This document shows positions 15,813-30,790 of a stretch of 30,924 nt of DNA, one piece after another; position 1 is the first letter of the stretch, and each line of letters starts with the position of its first letter. This stretch comes from a virus, in the IMG/VR virus record IMGVR_UViG_3300025896_000127, positions 1 through 30,924 of that record; one strand, given 5' to 3'. The notes below the pieces were generated by a model. The model was not told the origin of the DNA and ran no database searches. It saw nothing but the letters and a program-made list of their open reading frames with translations. The position numbers were made by a program, and so were the translations under genes.

Positions 15813-16270
15813 GGCGCACGCTGCTGACCGGACAGGAGTCGGCGGTTCTTAAATTCGTGGCCGACCTGTCGCCGATCGAGCGGCCGGTGTGGCGGGACGT
15901 GGCTGGCGCCTTTGGGGTGCTGCGCGAGGACGGCGCCATGATAGCGGGGGTTGTGTTTTCCAACCATCGCCCGGAATTTTCGACGTTGGAATTGAGCGCG
16001 GCAAGTGTTACGATGCACGCATTCAGCATCGGCATCGTATCCGCCTTGGGCGACTACGCTTTCCGACAGCTCTCCACAAATCGAGTTTGGGCGAGAACTT
16101 CCACGGCGAACCGGCGCGCACGCGCCATGCTTCGCGGCCTCGGGTTCACCGAGGAGGGCGTTCAAGCCTGCCACTACGGGCCTAAATCGCACGCGGTCAT
16201 CGCGCGCCTTCTACGGTCGGAGTGGGAACGTCGGAAAATCCGCACCGAAGAGGTGCGGCGGGCAGCTTAA
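15809..16270 (+). CDS. GNAT-family N-acetyltransferase
   Basis: This 153-residue protein starts at GTG 15809 (GTGA overlap). It has a GNAT acetyl-CoA-binding fold: a core strand and loop (REDGAMIAGVVFSN), then the diagnostic C-terminal element RVWARTSTANRRARAMLRGLGFTEEG, where the N-x-R-[AS]-xxx-LxxLGF pattern binds acetyl-CoA. The substrate is unknown. GNAT genes inside tail operons are recurrent in alphaproteobacterial podophages, and a virion protein or a host target could be acetylated. An in-frame ATG at 15638 would overlap the hub gene by 175 bases and is rejected. Confidence 0.82.
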   Translation: MRRTLLTGQESAVLKFVADLSPIERPVWRDVAGAFGVLREDGAMIAGVVFSNHRPEFSTLELSAASVTMHAFSIGIVSALGDYAFRQLSTNRVWARTSTANRRARAMLRGLGFTEEGVQACHYGPKSHAVIARLLRSEWERRKIRTEEVRRAA

Positions 16271-16271
16271 A

Positions 16272-17138
16272 ATGCAAAGTGGCGGCGGCAGCGCCCCCAA
16301 GTTTGACGCCGAAAAGGCGGCGAACGACCAGAAGAATACCAATGTCGCGACGGGCATTTCCAACGCCTATCTGGGCAACACCAATCAGGTGACGCCCTAC
16401 GGCAACCTGACGTATGAGCAGACCGGCACGGCGAGCATAGACGGCCGGGACATTCCCCGGTTTACCGCCACGCAGACGCTCAGTCCCTCGCAGCAGGCGA
16501 TCTACGACAAGACGACGGGATTGCAAAGCCGGGCGCTCGACACCGCCGGCAACGTGCTGGGCAGCGTCAACAATTCGGTCAACACGCCGCTCAACTACGA
16601 CGGGCTGCCGCAACTCCCGCAGGACCAGACCCAGCTTCGCAACGATGCGTATAGCGCGCTGACGGCTCGATCGACGGAGGATCTGAACCGGCAGACCGAC
16701 ATGCAAAAGACGCAGCTTGCCAACCAGGGCGTAGCGGCAGGATCGGAAGCCTACAACAACGCCATGATCCCGTTGGAGCGGGCGCGGGTGGACGCCTCCA
16801 ACCAGGCCACGATCAACGCCGGCAACATCGCGGGCCAGAACCTCCAGCAGGGACAGACGCTCCGCAACCAGGGCATTCAGGAGCGGACCTCGATCCGTAA
16901 CCAGCCCCTACAGGACTATCAGGCCTTGCAGGGCTTCGGGGGCGGCGTGACGCAACCGACGTGGGCGACGCCGACGCAGGCGCAAATTCCCACAACCGAT
17001 GTGACCTCGCCGCAGATCGCGGCCTATCAGGGACAGGTCAACGCCTACAATCAGGATCGTAGCGCCGGCAACGCGGCGATGGGCGGCCTGTTCGGACTGG
17101 GCGGCTCCGCCCTCATGGCTGGGGCGATGTTCGCATGA
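16272..17138 (+). CDS. Virion-associated protein (internal or tail protein, putative)
   Basis: This is a 288-residue Gln/Asn/Ala-rich protein. It begins with a Gly/Ser stretch and contains NTNQVTPYGNLTYEQTG, a phrase common in podophage internal or tail proteins encoded next to ejection proteins. The middle is long-helical with Gln-rich heptads (LANQGVAAGSEAYNNAM, GQNLQQGQTLRNQGIQ). The C-terminus is Gly/Ala-rich and hydrophobic (MGGLFGLGGSALMAGAMF), like a membrane-interacting end. Together with context this suggests a small ejection protein, comparable in position to P22 gp7/gp14. It starts one base after the acetyltransferase stop. Confidence 0.65.
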   Translation: MQSGGGSAPKFDAEKAANDQKNTNVATGISNAYLGNTNQVTPYGNLTYEQTGTASIDGRDIPRFTATQTLSPSQQAIYDKTTGLQSRALDTAGNVLGSVNNSVNTPLNYDGLPQLPQDQTQLRNDAYSALTARSTEDLNRQTDMQKTQLANQGVAAGSEAYNNAMIPLERARVDASNQATINAGNIAGQNLQQGQTLRNQGIQERTSIRNQPLQDYQALQGFGGGVTQPTWATPTQAQIPTTDVTSPQIAAYQGQVNAYNQDRSAGNAAMGGLFGLGGSALMAGAMFA

Positions 17139-17144
17139 TCGCCC
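17122..17144. terminator. GC-rich hairpin between convergent stop codons
   Basis: GGGCGAT (17122-17128) pairs with ATCGCCC (17138-17144) around a 9-base loop. The hairpin sits exactly where the plus-strand virion gene and the minus-strand lipoprotein gene meet. There is no T-run on either side, so it is a weak or accessory terminator candidate, possibly protecting mRNA ends. Confidence 0.35.
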
Positions 17145-17644
17145 TAGTCGCCTTGGCACTTCACCTTGTACTTGGTGCCGATCGACCGGCAGATGAACTG
17201 CGCGTCGTAGATCATCGCCTCAACCTGCGGCCGATCCCGGAACATCACGACGGTATTGTTGGCGGTCGGGTAGGTCCACGCATAAGCCGCGCCTGGATAG
17301 CTGATCGTATTGGAACTGCCGGAGATCGAATTGCCGTAAATCGAAGCGCTGCCGCTGGTGGTGCTGTATCCCGGCACAGTGACGACTCCTCCCGCATTGG
17401 CTCGCACGGCAGCGCCAGCAAATCCAAAATAACGGAAGCCGTTTTTAGTGGCGAGTTCGGCGCTTCGCAGCAAGGCAAAGTCCTGCGTTTGCTCCTGCGA
17501 GGTGTAGCCGTTTCCGGTGAAGGACACGCGCCAGATGTTGGGGGCAAGTTGGGTTTCCTCGTAGCCGCCAGCGAGGCCGCTGGGGCCGTATGGGGTACTG
17601 CATCCCGCAAGGGTTGCAAGCAGCATGACCATGAATAGTCGCAT
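17144..17644 (-). CDS. CC0125/CC1285-type lipoprotein (lysogenic-conversion candidate)
   Basis: This 166-residue protein is encoded against the direction of the whole late operon. The N-terminus MRLFMVMLLATLAGC is a lipoprotein signal with lipobox LAGC (lipidated Cys15). The mature part starts with PYGPSGLAGGYEETQLAPN, then WRVSFTGNGYTSQEQTQDFALLRSAELATKNGFRYF. This is the pattern of the CC0125/CC1285 lipoprotein family of alphaproteobacteria. A near-perfect GAGGAG (complement of 17650-17655) lies 5 bases from the ATG, and a promoter-like pair lies further upstream. Opposite strand, own ribosome site and own promoter are hallmarks of a moron, a gene the prophage expresses to alter the host envelope. 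Confidence 0.85.
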   Translation of the reverse strand: MRLFMVMLLATLAGCSTPYGPSGLAGGYEETQLAPNIWRVSFTGNGYTSQEQTQDFALLRSAELATKNGFRYFGFAGAAVRANAGGVVTVPGYSTTSGSASIYGNSISGSSNTISYPGAAYAWTYPTANNTVVMFRDRPQVEAMIYDAQFICRSIGTKYKVKCQGD

Positions 17645-18368
17645 GATTTCTCCTCTGCCCCTGCACGGGAATATCGCCCTTCAATTCAGCGGAGGCAAGG
17701 ATAGCCTCGCGCTCGTCCATCTGTTCAGGAACGATTGGGACCGAATCACGGTCTATCACGTCGATACCGGGGATTTGCTGCCGGAAGTCCGCGAGATTGT
17801 GGACGACGTGGCCGCAATGGTGCCGCGCTTTGTCCGCATTTCCTCCGATTCGCGGGCATGGGGAGCCATCCACGGCCTGCCGAGCGATCTTGTGCCCTGC
17901 ACCGGAACGCCGCCTGCAATCCTGATGGGAAGCCCGACGCGCATTTCCGGGCGCTATGAGTGCTGCGGTCATAATCTGTGGCTGCCGATGCACGCCCGCA
18001 TGGTGGCCGACGGGGTAACGCTTGCCATTCGCGGCACCAAGCGCTGCGACATGGCAAAGCTGCCGGCTGTCAGCGGCGACCAGACGCTTGGCTATGAGTT
18101 GCGGCTGCCGATCGAGGACTGGTCACACGATGACGTGTTTGCCTATCTCCGCGAGGTTGGCGCTCCGATCTGCCGCGTCTACGAAAGCAACGTCAACGCG
18201 CCGGAATGTGCGACATGCCCGGCCTGGTGGAGCGAAGGGCGGGGGGCTTACCTCGCCAAGTACCATCCCGATCTGCACGCGGCCTATCGCGCAAAACTCG
18301 CCATCGTGGGGGCCGAAATCGCGCCTCTGTACGCCGACCTTCAGCGGGAGGTGATGCATGGCCAGTAA
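17643..18368 (+). CDS. PP-loop / PAPS-reductase-family enzyme
   Basis: This protein of about 241 residues has the adenylating PP-loop ALQFSGGKDSLALVHLF at residues 12-28, the core of PAPS reductase/sulfotransferase, DndC and tRNA-thiolation-type ATP pyrophosphatases. Further elements are YHVDTGDLLPEV, RGTKRCDMAKLP, and LPIEDWSHDDVFAYL, a conserved W-x-x-x-D-V-F block of this superfamily. The CysH C-terminal ECGLH motif is absent. Instead there are ECCGH (mid-protein) and ECATCPAWW near residue 194, a CxxC that may bind metal or an Fe-S cluster. So it is probably not a true sulfate-assimilation reductase. No good ribosome site precedes ATG 17643; ATG 17625 (with a distant AAGGG) is an alternative start. 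Either way it overlaps the divergent lipoprotein gene. Confidence 0.85.
   Translation: MISPLPLHGNIALQFSGGKDSLALVHLFRNDWDRITVYHVDTGDLLPEVREIVDDVAAMVPRFVRISSDSRAWGAIHGLPSDLVPCTGTPPAILMGSPTRISGRYECCGHNLWLPMHARMVADGVTLAIRGTKRCDMAKLPAVSGDQTLGYELRLPIEDWSHDDVFAYLREVGAPICRVYESNVNAPECATCPAWWSEGRGAYLAKYHPDLHAAYRAKLAIVGAEIAPLYADLQREVMHGQ
17670..17698 (-). promoter_or_regulatory. Candidate promoter of the lipoprotein gene
   Basis: Read on the minus strand, TTGCCT (complement of 17693-17698) and GATATT (complement of 17670-17675) are separated by 17 bases and lie upstream of the strong ribosome binding site. Matches to sigma-70 consensus are only moderate (3/6 and 4/6). The site lies within the plus-strand PP-loop gene. 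Confidence 0.3.
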
Positions 18369-20175
18369 GCTCGCAGACTATCTTCTCGAAAATCCGATCT
18401 ATGCGGTCGGACAGCGCGCATCGGCGCAAGGATCGTCAACCGCGCCTGTTCAGTCGCCGCTGGAAGGCCTCGCGCGGGCGCTGCAAGGCGGCATTGGCGG
18501 CCTCACGCAAGGCTACGGGCTGGCGCAAGCCAAGCAGGAGCAGGGCGCCGACCAGACCGCGCTCGCGCAGGCGATGCAGCTCTACACGACCGATCCGGCC
18601 GCCGCGCGCAAGATACTGGCAAGCCGCCCGAACCTGTCCGACACGGCGGCGGCGATGCTGGCGCAAGACGTGGGCTTTGAGCGCCAAAAGGGCCTGATCG
18701 ACTACAAATCGAAGAAAGAGGAAGAGGACCAGGCCCGCACGATGCAGGCTTGGGGCCTCACGCCTCCGGGCGCAACGCCTGCCGGTGGCGGAAATACGCA
18801 GGTTGCCGGAGGTGTGCCGCCGGCACAGGCCAAAGCCGAGGCGCAAAAGCAAATTCAGTATCTCGTCAACGTCCACAACATCCCGCCTGAGTTGGCGACA
18901 ACGATGGTCGGCAATCTCTATCAGGAGAGCGGCTTCAACCCGAATGCCGTGCATGATGGCGGCACGGGATACGGCATGGGCGGTTGGCGCAATGAGCGCC
19001 GCTCGTCTCTGGTCAACGAGGCGCAGGCGCGCGGCGAAGACCCGTCAAACCCTACCGCCCAACTTGATTTTTACGCCAACGAGTTCAAGACGCGGCCCGA
19101 ATACCAGCAGGCCCTCCAGGCAAAGACCCCGGAGGCGCGGCAGGCTGCAATGATGACCTATTTCCGGCCGGCAGGGTACACACCACAAAACCCGCAGGGC
19201 GGTCACGGCTTCAACAACCGCGTGCAGTACGCGCAGCAATTTTCGCCGCAAGTCGTGCAAGGCTCAGCAGACGGGCAGATGCAGCCGCCCCCGCAAGCAC
19301 TCAACGCGCCGGCACCGCAGGCGAACGGCGAGACGATCAACTATCAGGGCCTCCAGCTTCCTAAGGCGGAAGTAACGGCGGCCATGATGATCCCCGACAA
19401 GGTGAAGCGCCAGGAAGCGCTGCTGAAGATCATCACAGACGGCGGCAAGCAGCAGCGCGGCCCCGACGCGGGCACGGCGGCCGGCGACGTTCACATTCTG
19501 ACCAAGGGCGACCCGTCGTCTCCCGAGTATCACGCCGCCTACAATCGTATTGCCGAGCCCAAGCAGGCCGCCAATGGCCAGCTTCTTCAGCCCGACATGC
19601 GCGCCTATCGCCGGCCGGAGATCGTCGGCGCGCAAACGGACGGCAACGTGGAGCCGCGCGTGATCGACACGCCGGCCTCGCGCTTTCAGATGAGCGGCAA
19701 ACTTGCGGACGACTTCAACCAGCTTAAATCAGTGAAGGACTACCGCGAGGTCGTGCCGATCTTCCAGTCGATGCAGGAAGCGGCAACGCAGAACAACCGC
19801 GTGGCCGACCTCAACCTTGTGTATGGCCTCGCCAAGCTGTTCGACCCGACCTCGGTTGTCCGCGAGGGCGAACAGATCATGGTGAAAAACGCGCAGGGCC
19901 TGCCGGATCAGGTCAAGGGTTGGATCAGCGCGTTCCAGGGCGGCAGCGGTTTCCCGCCCGAACAGCGCGCTCGCATCATGGAGCAGGCCGCAAGCCGCGT
20001 GAATGCCTACAAGGCGCAGTACGACGGCATCGCAGCGCAGTTCACCGAACGCGCCAAGCGTTACGGCCTCGATCCGAAGGACGTGCTGACGACGCCGAGC
20101 CAGCCGCAGCAGCCCGCACAGGGCGCGGCGGGCAGCGTCCCGGTCTACGACATCAACGGAAAGCGCATCAAGTGA
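18358..20175 (+). CDS. Ejection/internal virion protein with tail-lysozyme domain
   Basis: This is a 605-residue protein. Residues ~165-290 match the phage tail lysozyme pattern: LVNVHNIPPELATTMVGNLYQESGFNP (candidate catalytic Glu190), then NAVHDGGTGYGMGGWRNERRSSL, then AQLDFYANEF and a late GGHGFNNRVQYA. It likely cuts peptidoglycan during DNA injection. The N-terminal ~130 residues are helical and Gln/Ala-rich, and the C-terminal ~300 residues are helical and probably form part of the ejection channel. The ATG overlaps the PP-loop gene by 11 bases, and the end overlaps the next GTG by 4 bases. Role comparable to P22 gp16/gp20-type ejection proteins, by position. Confidence 0.82.
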   Translation: MASKLADYLLENPIYAVGQRASAQGSSTAPVQSPLEGLARALQGGIGGLTQGYGLAQAKQEQGADQTALAQAMQLYTTDPAAARKILASRPNLSDTAAAMLAQDVGFERQKGLIDYKSKKEEEDQARTMQAWGLTPPGATPAGGGNTQVAGGVPPAQAKAEAQKQIQYLVNVHNIPPELATTMVGNLYQESGFNPNAVHDGGTGYGMGGWRNERRSSLVNEAQARGEDPSNPTAQLDFYANEFKTRPEYQQALQAKTPEARQAAMMTYFRPAGYTPQNPQGGHGFNNRVQYAQQFSPQVVQGSADGQMQPPPQALNAPAPQANGETINYQGLQLPKAEVTAAMMIPDKVKRQEALLKIITDGGKQQRGPDAGTAAGDVHILTKGDPSSPEYHAAYNRIAEPKQAANGQLLQPDMRAYRRPEIVGAQTDGNVEPRVIDTPASRFQMSGKLADDFNQLKSVKDYREVVPIFQSMQEAATQNNRVADLNLVYGLAKLFDPTSVVREGEQIMVKNAQGLPDQVKGWISAFQGGSGFPPEQRARIMEQAASRVNAYKAQYDGIAAQFTERAKRYGLDPKDVLTTPSQPQQPAQGAAGSVPVYDINGKRIK

Positions 20176-30049: not shown

Positions 30050-30180
30050 GGGCTTCCCACTCGCGCCAGGAACTCGCCGTACCTGACCACCAGCCAGAGC
30101 GCGCCGGGTATCACCACGAACAGTATCACGGCGACGAGGCCAATGCGCGCGATGTTTGCTAGAGCGTCTTCGCTAATCAT
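30046..30180 (-). CDS. Small one-TM membrane protein (44 aa)
   Basis: This 44-residue frame has a central hydrophobic helix (IGLVAVILFVVIPGALWLVV, residues 13-32) flanked by an acidic N-terminus and a basic C-terminus (RYGEFLARVGSP), giving a probable N-out/C-in or N-in/C-out single-pass protein. It overlaps the Lar-like gene upstream and the excisionase gene downstream as ATGA on the minus strand. Too short to name; early small membrane proteins can act in superinfection exclusion, which is only a possibility. Confidence 0.65.
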   Translation of the reverse strand: MISEDALANIARIGLVAVILFVVIPGALWLVVRYGEFLARVGSP

Positions 30181-30605
30181 GTGCTTACCTTCCTGCTGGC
30201 GGAGAGCAGATCGCTGATCTTCTTGTCCATTTGCTCGTCGGCATACCAGTATCCGCGCTCACTCCAGTCATGCCCTGCCCGCGATTCGCGGATGTCCTTC
30301 AACAGCGAGCGCGGCACCACCACATAGCCTTCCGGTATCGTGACGCGCTCTGCCCGCAGCCGCTCGATCTCGTCGTCAGGGGCGCGGCGGTTCCATGCGG
30401 CGATGGCTTTTTCGGGCGTGTCGTATCCGCGAAGCCCTTGATTGTTCATCCCGCAGATCATGCAGTTGCAGTAGTAGAACGTACTCTGAGACCAACCCTG
30501 CTCTTTGGCGAAGGCCTCGCCATAGCGCACTTTGCCGTTGCCGGAGGATTTTCCGCCGCAGCATGGACAGGGCAGCACCGTAGGGAGGTCTTGCGCGTCG
30601 GTCAT
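30177..30605 (-). CDS. Lar-like restriction alleviation protein
   Basis: This is a 142-residue protein. The N-terminal ~75 residues fit the Lar family: LPCPCCGG (Cys13, 15, 16), then YYCNCMICGM (Cys46, 48, 51) as a second zinc knuckle, then TPEKAIAAWNRRA, the diagnostic A-W-N-x-R. In E. coli, Lar of the Rac prophage lowers type I restriction. The C-terminal ~65 residues (RVTIPEGYVVVPRSLLKDIRES) form an extra helical extension common in phage small-protein fusions. The start at 30605 is preceded by GGGAG; a longer frame adds 14 unrelated residues. The role could also be generic zinc-ribbon DNA binding. Confidence 0.75.
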   Translation of the reverse strand: MTDAQDLPTVLPCPCCGGKSSGNGKVRYGEAFAKEQGWSQSTFYYCNCMICGMNNQGLRGYDTPEKAIAAWNRRAPDDEIERLRAERVTIPEGYVVVPRSLLKDIRESRAGHDWSERGYWYADEQMDKKISDLLSASRKVST

Positions 30606-30790
30606 GAAACGCTCCCGTTTGGGTAGATGCGATACACGCGGCCACAAGTGCCCTGCTCGATCATCTGCGCTTCGGCCTCACTGACTTCGCGGTACGAGCG
30701 GCCAAGGTTGTCGGTTTCAATAGTCTCTCCGGTGCCTTGGCCGGGCCGCGATGACACGATGCGGCGGCCTTCCGGGTTTTCAAATATCAT
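30602..30790 (-). CDS. Small protein (62 aa), unknown
   Basis: This 62-residue protein (MIFENPEGRRIVSSRPGQG ... QGTCGRVYRIYPNGSVS) is preceded by a strong AAGGAG on the minus strand, which decides the start over a longer frame. It is beta-rich with a single Cys. No family recognised. It overlaps the next gene (Lar-like) by 4 bases. Confidence 0.6.
   Translation of the reverse strand: MIFENPEGRRIVSSRPGQGTGETIETDNLGRSYREVSEAEAQMIEQGTCGRVYRIYPNGSVS

Follow-up and report, generated by a model that had tools for sequence, protein, structure and literature searches.

How can an operon accommodate a gene that runs against it and still express the genes behind? The question is raised by a viral record of 30,924 nucleotides (IMG/VR IMGVR_UViG_3300025896_000127; this whole stretch is called the window below), in which a lipoprotein gene lies on the minus strand between two genes of a virion operon, head-to-head with a gene for a PP-loop protein (Table 1). 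The window carries an integrase gene, and its succession of genes for an amidase-like virion protein, an acyltransferase, a virion protein and a PAPS reductase is that of gp63-gp67 of the Burkholderia phage BcepIL02, which places it in the broad Bcep22-like group. The phage is a temperate Bcep22-like podovirus, and its host is probably an alphaproteobacterium. The ORF listed for the virion structural gene upstream of the lipoprotein gene starts at a GTG at position 16005, and its match to the phrog_6121 family begins only at residue 91. Elsewhere in the window, an ORF at 30177-30647 (minus strand) is similar to a Lar-like restriction alleviation protein (phrog_599, 5e-10), and the N-terminal part of the ORF at 551-2110 matches both a DNA methyltransferase (phrog_116) and a DNA primase (phrog_864).

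Table 1. Features of the locus, with positions in the window.
Feature	Positions	Strand	Remark
Virion structural gene (phrog_6121), upstream partner	16272..17138	+	Same position as BcepIL02 gp66
Relay frame, 167 codons, open antisense to the lipoprotein gene	17135..17638	+	SD of start, -7.7
Lipoprotein gene, 166 aa, CC0125/CC1285 family	17144..17644	-	NF047637
Signal peptide, including the lipobox Cys codon (17600-17602)	17600..17644	-	DNA homology between long and short loci ends here
PP-loop / PAPS-reductase-like gene	17631..18368	+	PF01507, phrog_424; alternative starts 17625, 17643
GAGGAG ribosome site of the lipoprotein gene, inside PP-loop codons	17650..17655	-	CTCCTC on the plus strand, 5 nt from the ATG
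Promoter-like pair TTGCCT (17698-17693), 17 nt, GATATT (17675-17670)	17670..17698	-	Inside PP-loop codons; putative
Downstream virion gene with phage tail lysozyme domain	18358..20175	+	PF18013

The product of the reversed gene scored 87.4 bits against the NF047637 model lipo_CC0125 over residues 3-155 (cut-off 40) and thus belongs to this family. Its N terminus, MRLFMVMLLATLAGC followed by STPYG, comprises the signal peptide and lipobox that characterize NF047637 members, and the lipobox Cys is invariant among the aligned sequences. Family score, lipobox, SD sequence and conservation together rule out a chance ORF. The sequence-only reading had proposed that a lipoprotein gene stands reversed in the late operon and carries its own ribosome site; the family score and the GAGGAG bear this out, and the layout is kept in all 17 loci that carry such a gene.

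These carriers came to light among relatives of the region drawn from IMG/VR and GTDB genomes, 16 of which have, like the window, a reversed lipoprotein gene head-to-head with the PP-loop gene. The long lipoprotein of about 166 residues is found in the window and on three other contigs (L002/L005, L003/L006 and L004/L015), whose proteins are 97-98% (L002, L003) or 79% (L004) identical to that of the window. A different, short lipoprotein of 70-75 residues is encoded in 13 further loci, in all of them reversed and head-to-head with the PP-loop gene; a scan for it brought up mainly contigs from this set, and no contig on which it could be seen outside the slot. The slot bounded by the virion and PP-loop genes thus holds a long CC0125-type lipoprotein gene, an unrelated short one, a methyltransferase gene, or nothing (L009, L013, L022, L028, L031, L032 and L033). 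The methyltransferase-like ORF, predicted to use SAM, stands on the plus strand in place of the lipoprotein gene in one locus (L023:2475-3320), and for this reason the slot may be a general site of insertion.

Comparison of the loci pointed to exchange of the lipoprotein gene as a cassette. From codon 9 to the end, the lipoproteins of the window and of L005/L006 are 99% identical, with 8-9% of fourfold sites differing, as against 52-58% in the adjoining PP-loop genes. Between long and short loci, DNA similarity spans the PP-loop gene, the start and the signal peptide, ends at the lipobox Cys codon (17600 in the window), and picks up again in the virion gene, close to where the lipoprotein gene stops; blastn alignments of the window with L011 begin at 17600, and those of L015 with L018 at the equivalent base. 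Because similarity breaks and resumes at these points, the mature lipoprotein is seen to be exchanged at the lipobox Cys, which is the processing site, while the start and the signal peptide, tied in position to the PP-loop start, are retained. By its sequence, then, the gene is best described as an exchangeable envelope-lipoprotein cassette, or moron, reversed between two genes of the virion module.

Homologues of the long lipoprotein are present on the chromosomes of 41 of 190 alphaproteobacterial genomes, and one Hyphomonadaceae MAG holds four copies of the family as well as a relative of this phage (L035); weaker homologues of the short lipoprotein were also found on chromosomes. Searches of Pfam and PHROGs gave no significant match for the lipoproteins, Foldseek comparisons of predicted structures of the long (pLDDT 76) and short (pLDDT 78.5) proteins with the PDB gave no meaningful one, and no homology to known superinfection-exclusion lipoproteins was found by sequence or fold. 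The single match of the lipoprotein in the phage collection, at 26% identity, lies in Acinetobacter phage Ab1656-2 (MZ675741.1:26333-26776, minus strand), where it bears the possibly mistaken annotation of a SEL1-like repeat protein. As lipoproteins of this kind occur in host chromosomes, are exchanged among phages and are independently oriented, the gene fits an envelope protein that would be expressed by lysogens as a moron, for example a superinfection-exclusion factor.

The partner of the lipoprotein gene, read as the ORF from 17625 to 18368, has PF01507 as its only domain over threshold and matches phrog_424. It falls far below the CysH equivalog cut-offs (32 bits against 154 for PRK02090, and 21 against 235 for TIGR02055). 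The protein has an invariant CC at positions 107-108 and a CxxC at positions 189-192, numbered from the ATG at 17643, the arrangement in which APS reductases have their 4Fe-4S ligands, and it shows a weak profile match to Cap9. A search of the literature for phage PAPS reductases accompanied by a lipoprotein found nothing relevant.

We then asked how the two head-to-head genes are joined at their starts. The minus-strand ATG at 17642-17644 and a plus-strand ATG at 17643-17645 do overlap as CATG in the window, as had been pointed out, but this overlap is not conserved in the relatives: L005/L006, L011, L015 and L035 have ACA, ATT, ATC or ATT at that position, none of them a start codon. The PP-loop gene of these relatives must therefore start further upstream, within the signal-peptide codons of the lipoprotein. 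The window also has ATGs at 17625 and 17631, within lipoprotein codons, and one of these is more likely to be its PP-loop start than 17643. With such a start, the two genes probably share 14-20 bases rather than 2.

The usual setting of the PP-loop gene can be read from 65 lipoprotein-free relatives, the most distant at about 31% identity. Its start overlaps the stop of the upstream gene in 51 of them, mostly at -4 or -1, and lies within 17 nt of it in 12 more, showing that the PP-loop gene is normally placed to take ribosomes from its neighbour. Such stop-start overlap would also imply co-transcription of the two genes in those phages. In the carriers, the candidate PP-loop starts have SD duplex energies of +0.3 to -4.1, compared with about -6 to -9 at the majority of the window's other starts; the values for the window are -4.1 (17625), -3.8 (17631) and -0.8 (17643).

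In each of the 17 carriers, one plus-strand frame, which we call the relay frame, is open across the whole antisense of the lipoprotein gene and ends at the PP-loop start. In the window, its ATG overlaps the stop of the virion gene (ATGA, 17135-17138) and its stop (TAG, 17636-17638) overlaps the ATG at 17631, forming ATGAATAG (17631-17638), as it does in L005/L006 and L015. These spacings are the same in the relatives and are among the -4, -1 and -8 spacings enriched at coupled genes (PMC12548453). At the PP-loop start, the frame ends in ATGA in carriers of the short lipoprotein, and in ATGAATAG or ATGAATAA in those of the long one. At its other end, the start codon overlaps the stop of the virion gene (ATGA, GTGA or TTGA) in 16 of 17 carriers and lies a few bases downstream in L024, an overlap that is common by chance, as it arises wherever A, G or T stands before a TGA stop.

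How much the openness of the frame says depends on its phase. In the long carriers, the window included, the relay frame is in the codon-aligned antisense phase, and synonymous recoding indicated that it should be open fairly often (P 0.05-0.43); the same frame is open in 18 of 29 chromosomal homologues of the long lipoprotein, so that the window's own frame had to be rejected as proof of selection. The short lipoproteins have it in a phase where stops arise often. There, recoding gave 1.6-2.8 expected stops per gene and a probability of 0.03-0.16 that a gene be open by chance, yet nine of nine tested were open. Pooled over these nine loci, no relay stop was observed where 18.9 were expected from recoding, or 10.0 from permutation of each gene's own synonymous codons, a weaker test (P 0.06-1.0 per gene). 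In the other two antisense phases of the same genes, stops were at or above expectation, and in the relay phase of these phages' PP-loop and virion genes they amounted to 0.83-1.05 of it.

Shared ancestry accounts for little of this openness. Fourfold sites of the short lipoproteins are saturated between most lineages (0.55-0.79 differing), making these lineages near-independent at such sites; the fraction is 0.18-0.36 among L007, L019 and L021, which are closer kin and do not count as three independent lineages. The saturation also means that the amino acid sequence of the relay frame is not conserved, which argues that ribosome passage matters rather than the product. Thus, the absence of relay stops in the short-lipoprotein lineages is far beyond chance, and the evidence for selection comes from these relatives, not from the window.

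A noncontiguous operon contains an opposite-strand gene with its own promoter inside a co-transcribed operon, with antisense transcripts capable of mutual regulation (PMC7154746, PMC11087260). The locus likewise has an opposite-strand gene between operon genes, and the reading that we favor, with a probability of roughly 0.6, is that of a lipoprotein cassette in a noncontiguous-operon layout, in which translation of the relay frame would preserve the coupling of the enzyme gene. During late expression, ribosomes finishing the virion gene would resume at the start of the relay frame and translate across the antisense of the lipoprotein gene. Having terminated at the PP-loop start, they would reinitiate at that point. 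The relay frame would in this manner restore the stop-start coupling that relatives without lipoprotein have directly. A minus-strand promoter of its own would drive the lipoprotein gene, probably in the lysogen, where the lipoprotein would alter the cell surface, for example to exclude superinfecting phages, and late antisense transcription would lower expression of the gene. The more specific proposition, that selection maintains a stop-free antisense frame to relay ribosomes through the complement of the reversed gene, with the mature lipoprotein swappable as long as the frame stays open, appears to us evenly balanced between true and false.

The ribosome site and the putative promoter of the lipoprotein gene lie inside PP-loop codons. 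The ribosome site is conserved and strong, with a duplex energy of -9.0 kcal/mol in the window and of -7.7 to -12.9 kcal/mol across carriers; it is only mildly stronger than synonymously recoded PP-loop codons would provide, and non-carriers overlap in range, so that this result is supporting, not decisive. The promoter-like pair noted earlier does match the consensus at 8 of 12 positions, but a strict sigma-70 scan of positions 17000-18400 reported no promoter. TTGCCN-N17-NATATT occurs at the same position in 10-11 of 13 carriers versus 2 of 17 non-carriers, part of this positional conservation reflecting conserved PP-loop residues. A terminator scan of the same interval found none between the converging genes. 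L009, a close relative without lipoprotein, has neither the ribosome site on the minus strand nor the -35-like element; an 8-nt gap precedes the PP-loop ATG in that locus (L009:3159-3239).

With its integrase gene and possible minus-strand promoter, the window could instead harbor a transcriptional switch of the noncontiguous-operon type, in which divergent overlapping transcripts exclude each other, lipoprotein being made in lysogens and enzyme in lysis. The layout is the same as that of tha/ith in phage 80alpha, where exclusion was shown (PMC11087260), and a lysogeny/lysis switch is plausible by that analogy. The form in which the sequence-only reading had cast it, mutual exclusion through overlapping start codons, is unsupported, as the CATG is not conserved; moreover, the conserved relay frame suggests that late expression is organized to traverse the reversed gene. 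A switch is compatible with the relay frame yet does not need it, and as a full account of the locus we consider it possible, in a tentative way. The same openness of the frame would also be expected if translation shielded the late transcript from Rho-dependent polarity over an otherwise untranslated stretch, without serving the PP-loop start specifically. This is unlikely given that the frame ends precisely at that start, with ATGA in the short-lipoprotein carriers, and that the PP-loop gene has no strong SD sequence and is stop-start coupled in non-carriers.

It is improbable that the antisense frame is a genuine protein-coding gene overprinted on the lipoprotein gene. Its openness in all carriers, the SD value of its start in the window (-7.7) and the somewhat reduced fourfold divergence among the close L007, L019 and L021 would agree with such a gene, but the saturated lipoprotein fourfold sites of distant lineages let the relay protein change freely, the antisense phase differs between long and short carriers, and the relay protein matches no family. 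Chance combined with codon bias, which would do for the long lipoproteins taken alone, is similarly improbable, given that the short ones lack any stop where 10-19 would be expected and that control genes are near expectation.

Cor and the Llp of phage T5 are superinfection-exclusion lipoproteins of phages. Ltp of phage TP-J34 is another that is phage-encoded (PMC3952083), and the lipoprotein of the window resembles all three in being encoded by a phage as an accessory gene. Compared with the rest of the CC0125/CC1285 family (NF047637), it is a phage copy placed in a virion operon. Bcep22-like podoviruses (Lessievirus) share the order of the surrounding genes, BcepIL02 gp63-gp69 comprising an internal virion/amidase-like protein, an acyltransferase, a virion protein, the PAPS reductase and virion proteins. 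BcepIL02 (L169) differs in having no lipoprotein gene between gp66 and gp67; a 13-nt gap separates them, with an SD sequence before the PAPS reductase gene.

If the gap opposite the reversed gene is translated, this would explain in a simple way how an operon can carry a reversed cargo gene and keep the genes behind it. The places where morons can land would then follow a layout rule, and long open antisense frames would have a new reason, namely selection for ribosome passage and not for a protein. A search of the open-access literature found no report of an open, coupled antisense stretch across a reversed operon gene. A parallel for the bridging itself is MIRU, a repeat whose insertion at a start codon brings in an ORF with -4 coupling to the gene that follows (PMC12548453). 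By analogy, the relay frame would do for the reversed gene what the MIRU ORF does for the repeat, with the difference that the bridging frame is here the antisense of another protein gene. Noncontiguous operons, such as menE-menC-MW1733-ytkD-MW1731 of Staphylococcus aureus (PMC7154746) and tha/ith of 80alpha, where lysogenic and lytic states exclude each other by virtue of this layout (PMC11087260), have been presented chiefly as transcriptional switches whose gap is untranslated, the mRNA opposite the reversed gene being regarded as an internal untranslated region. In the window, by contrast, that stretch is an open frame with stop-start overlaps to both neighbours.
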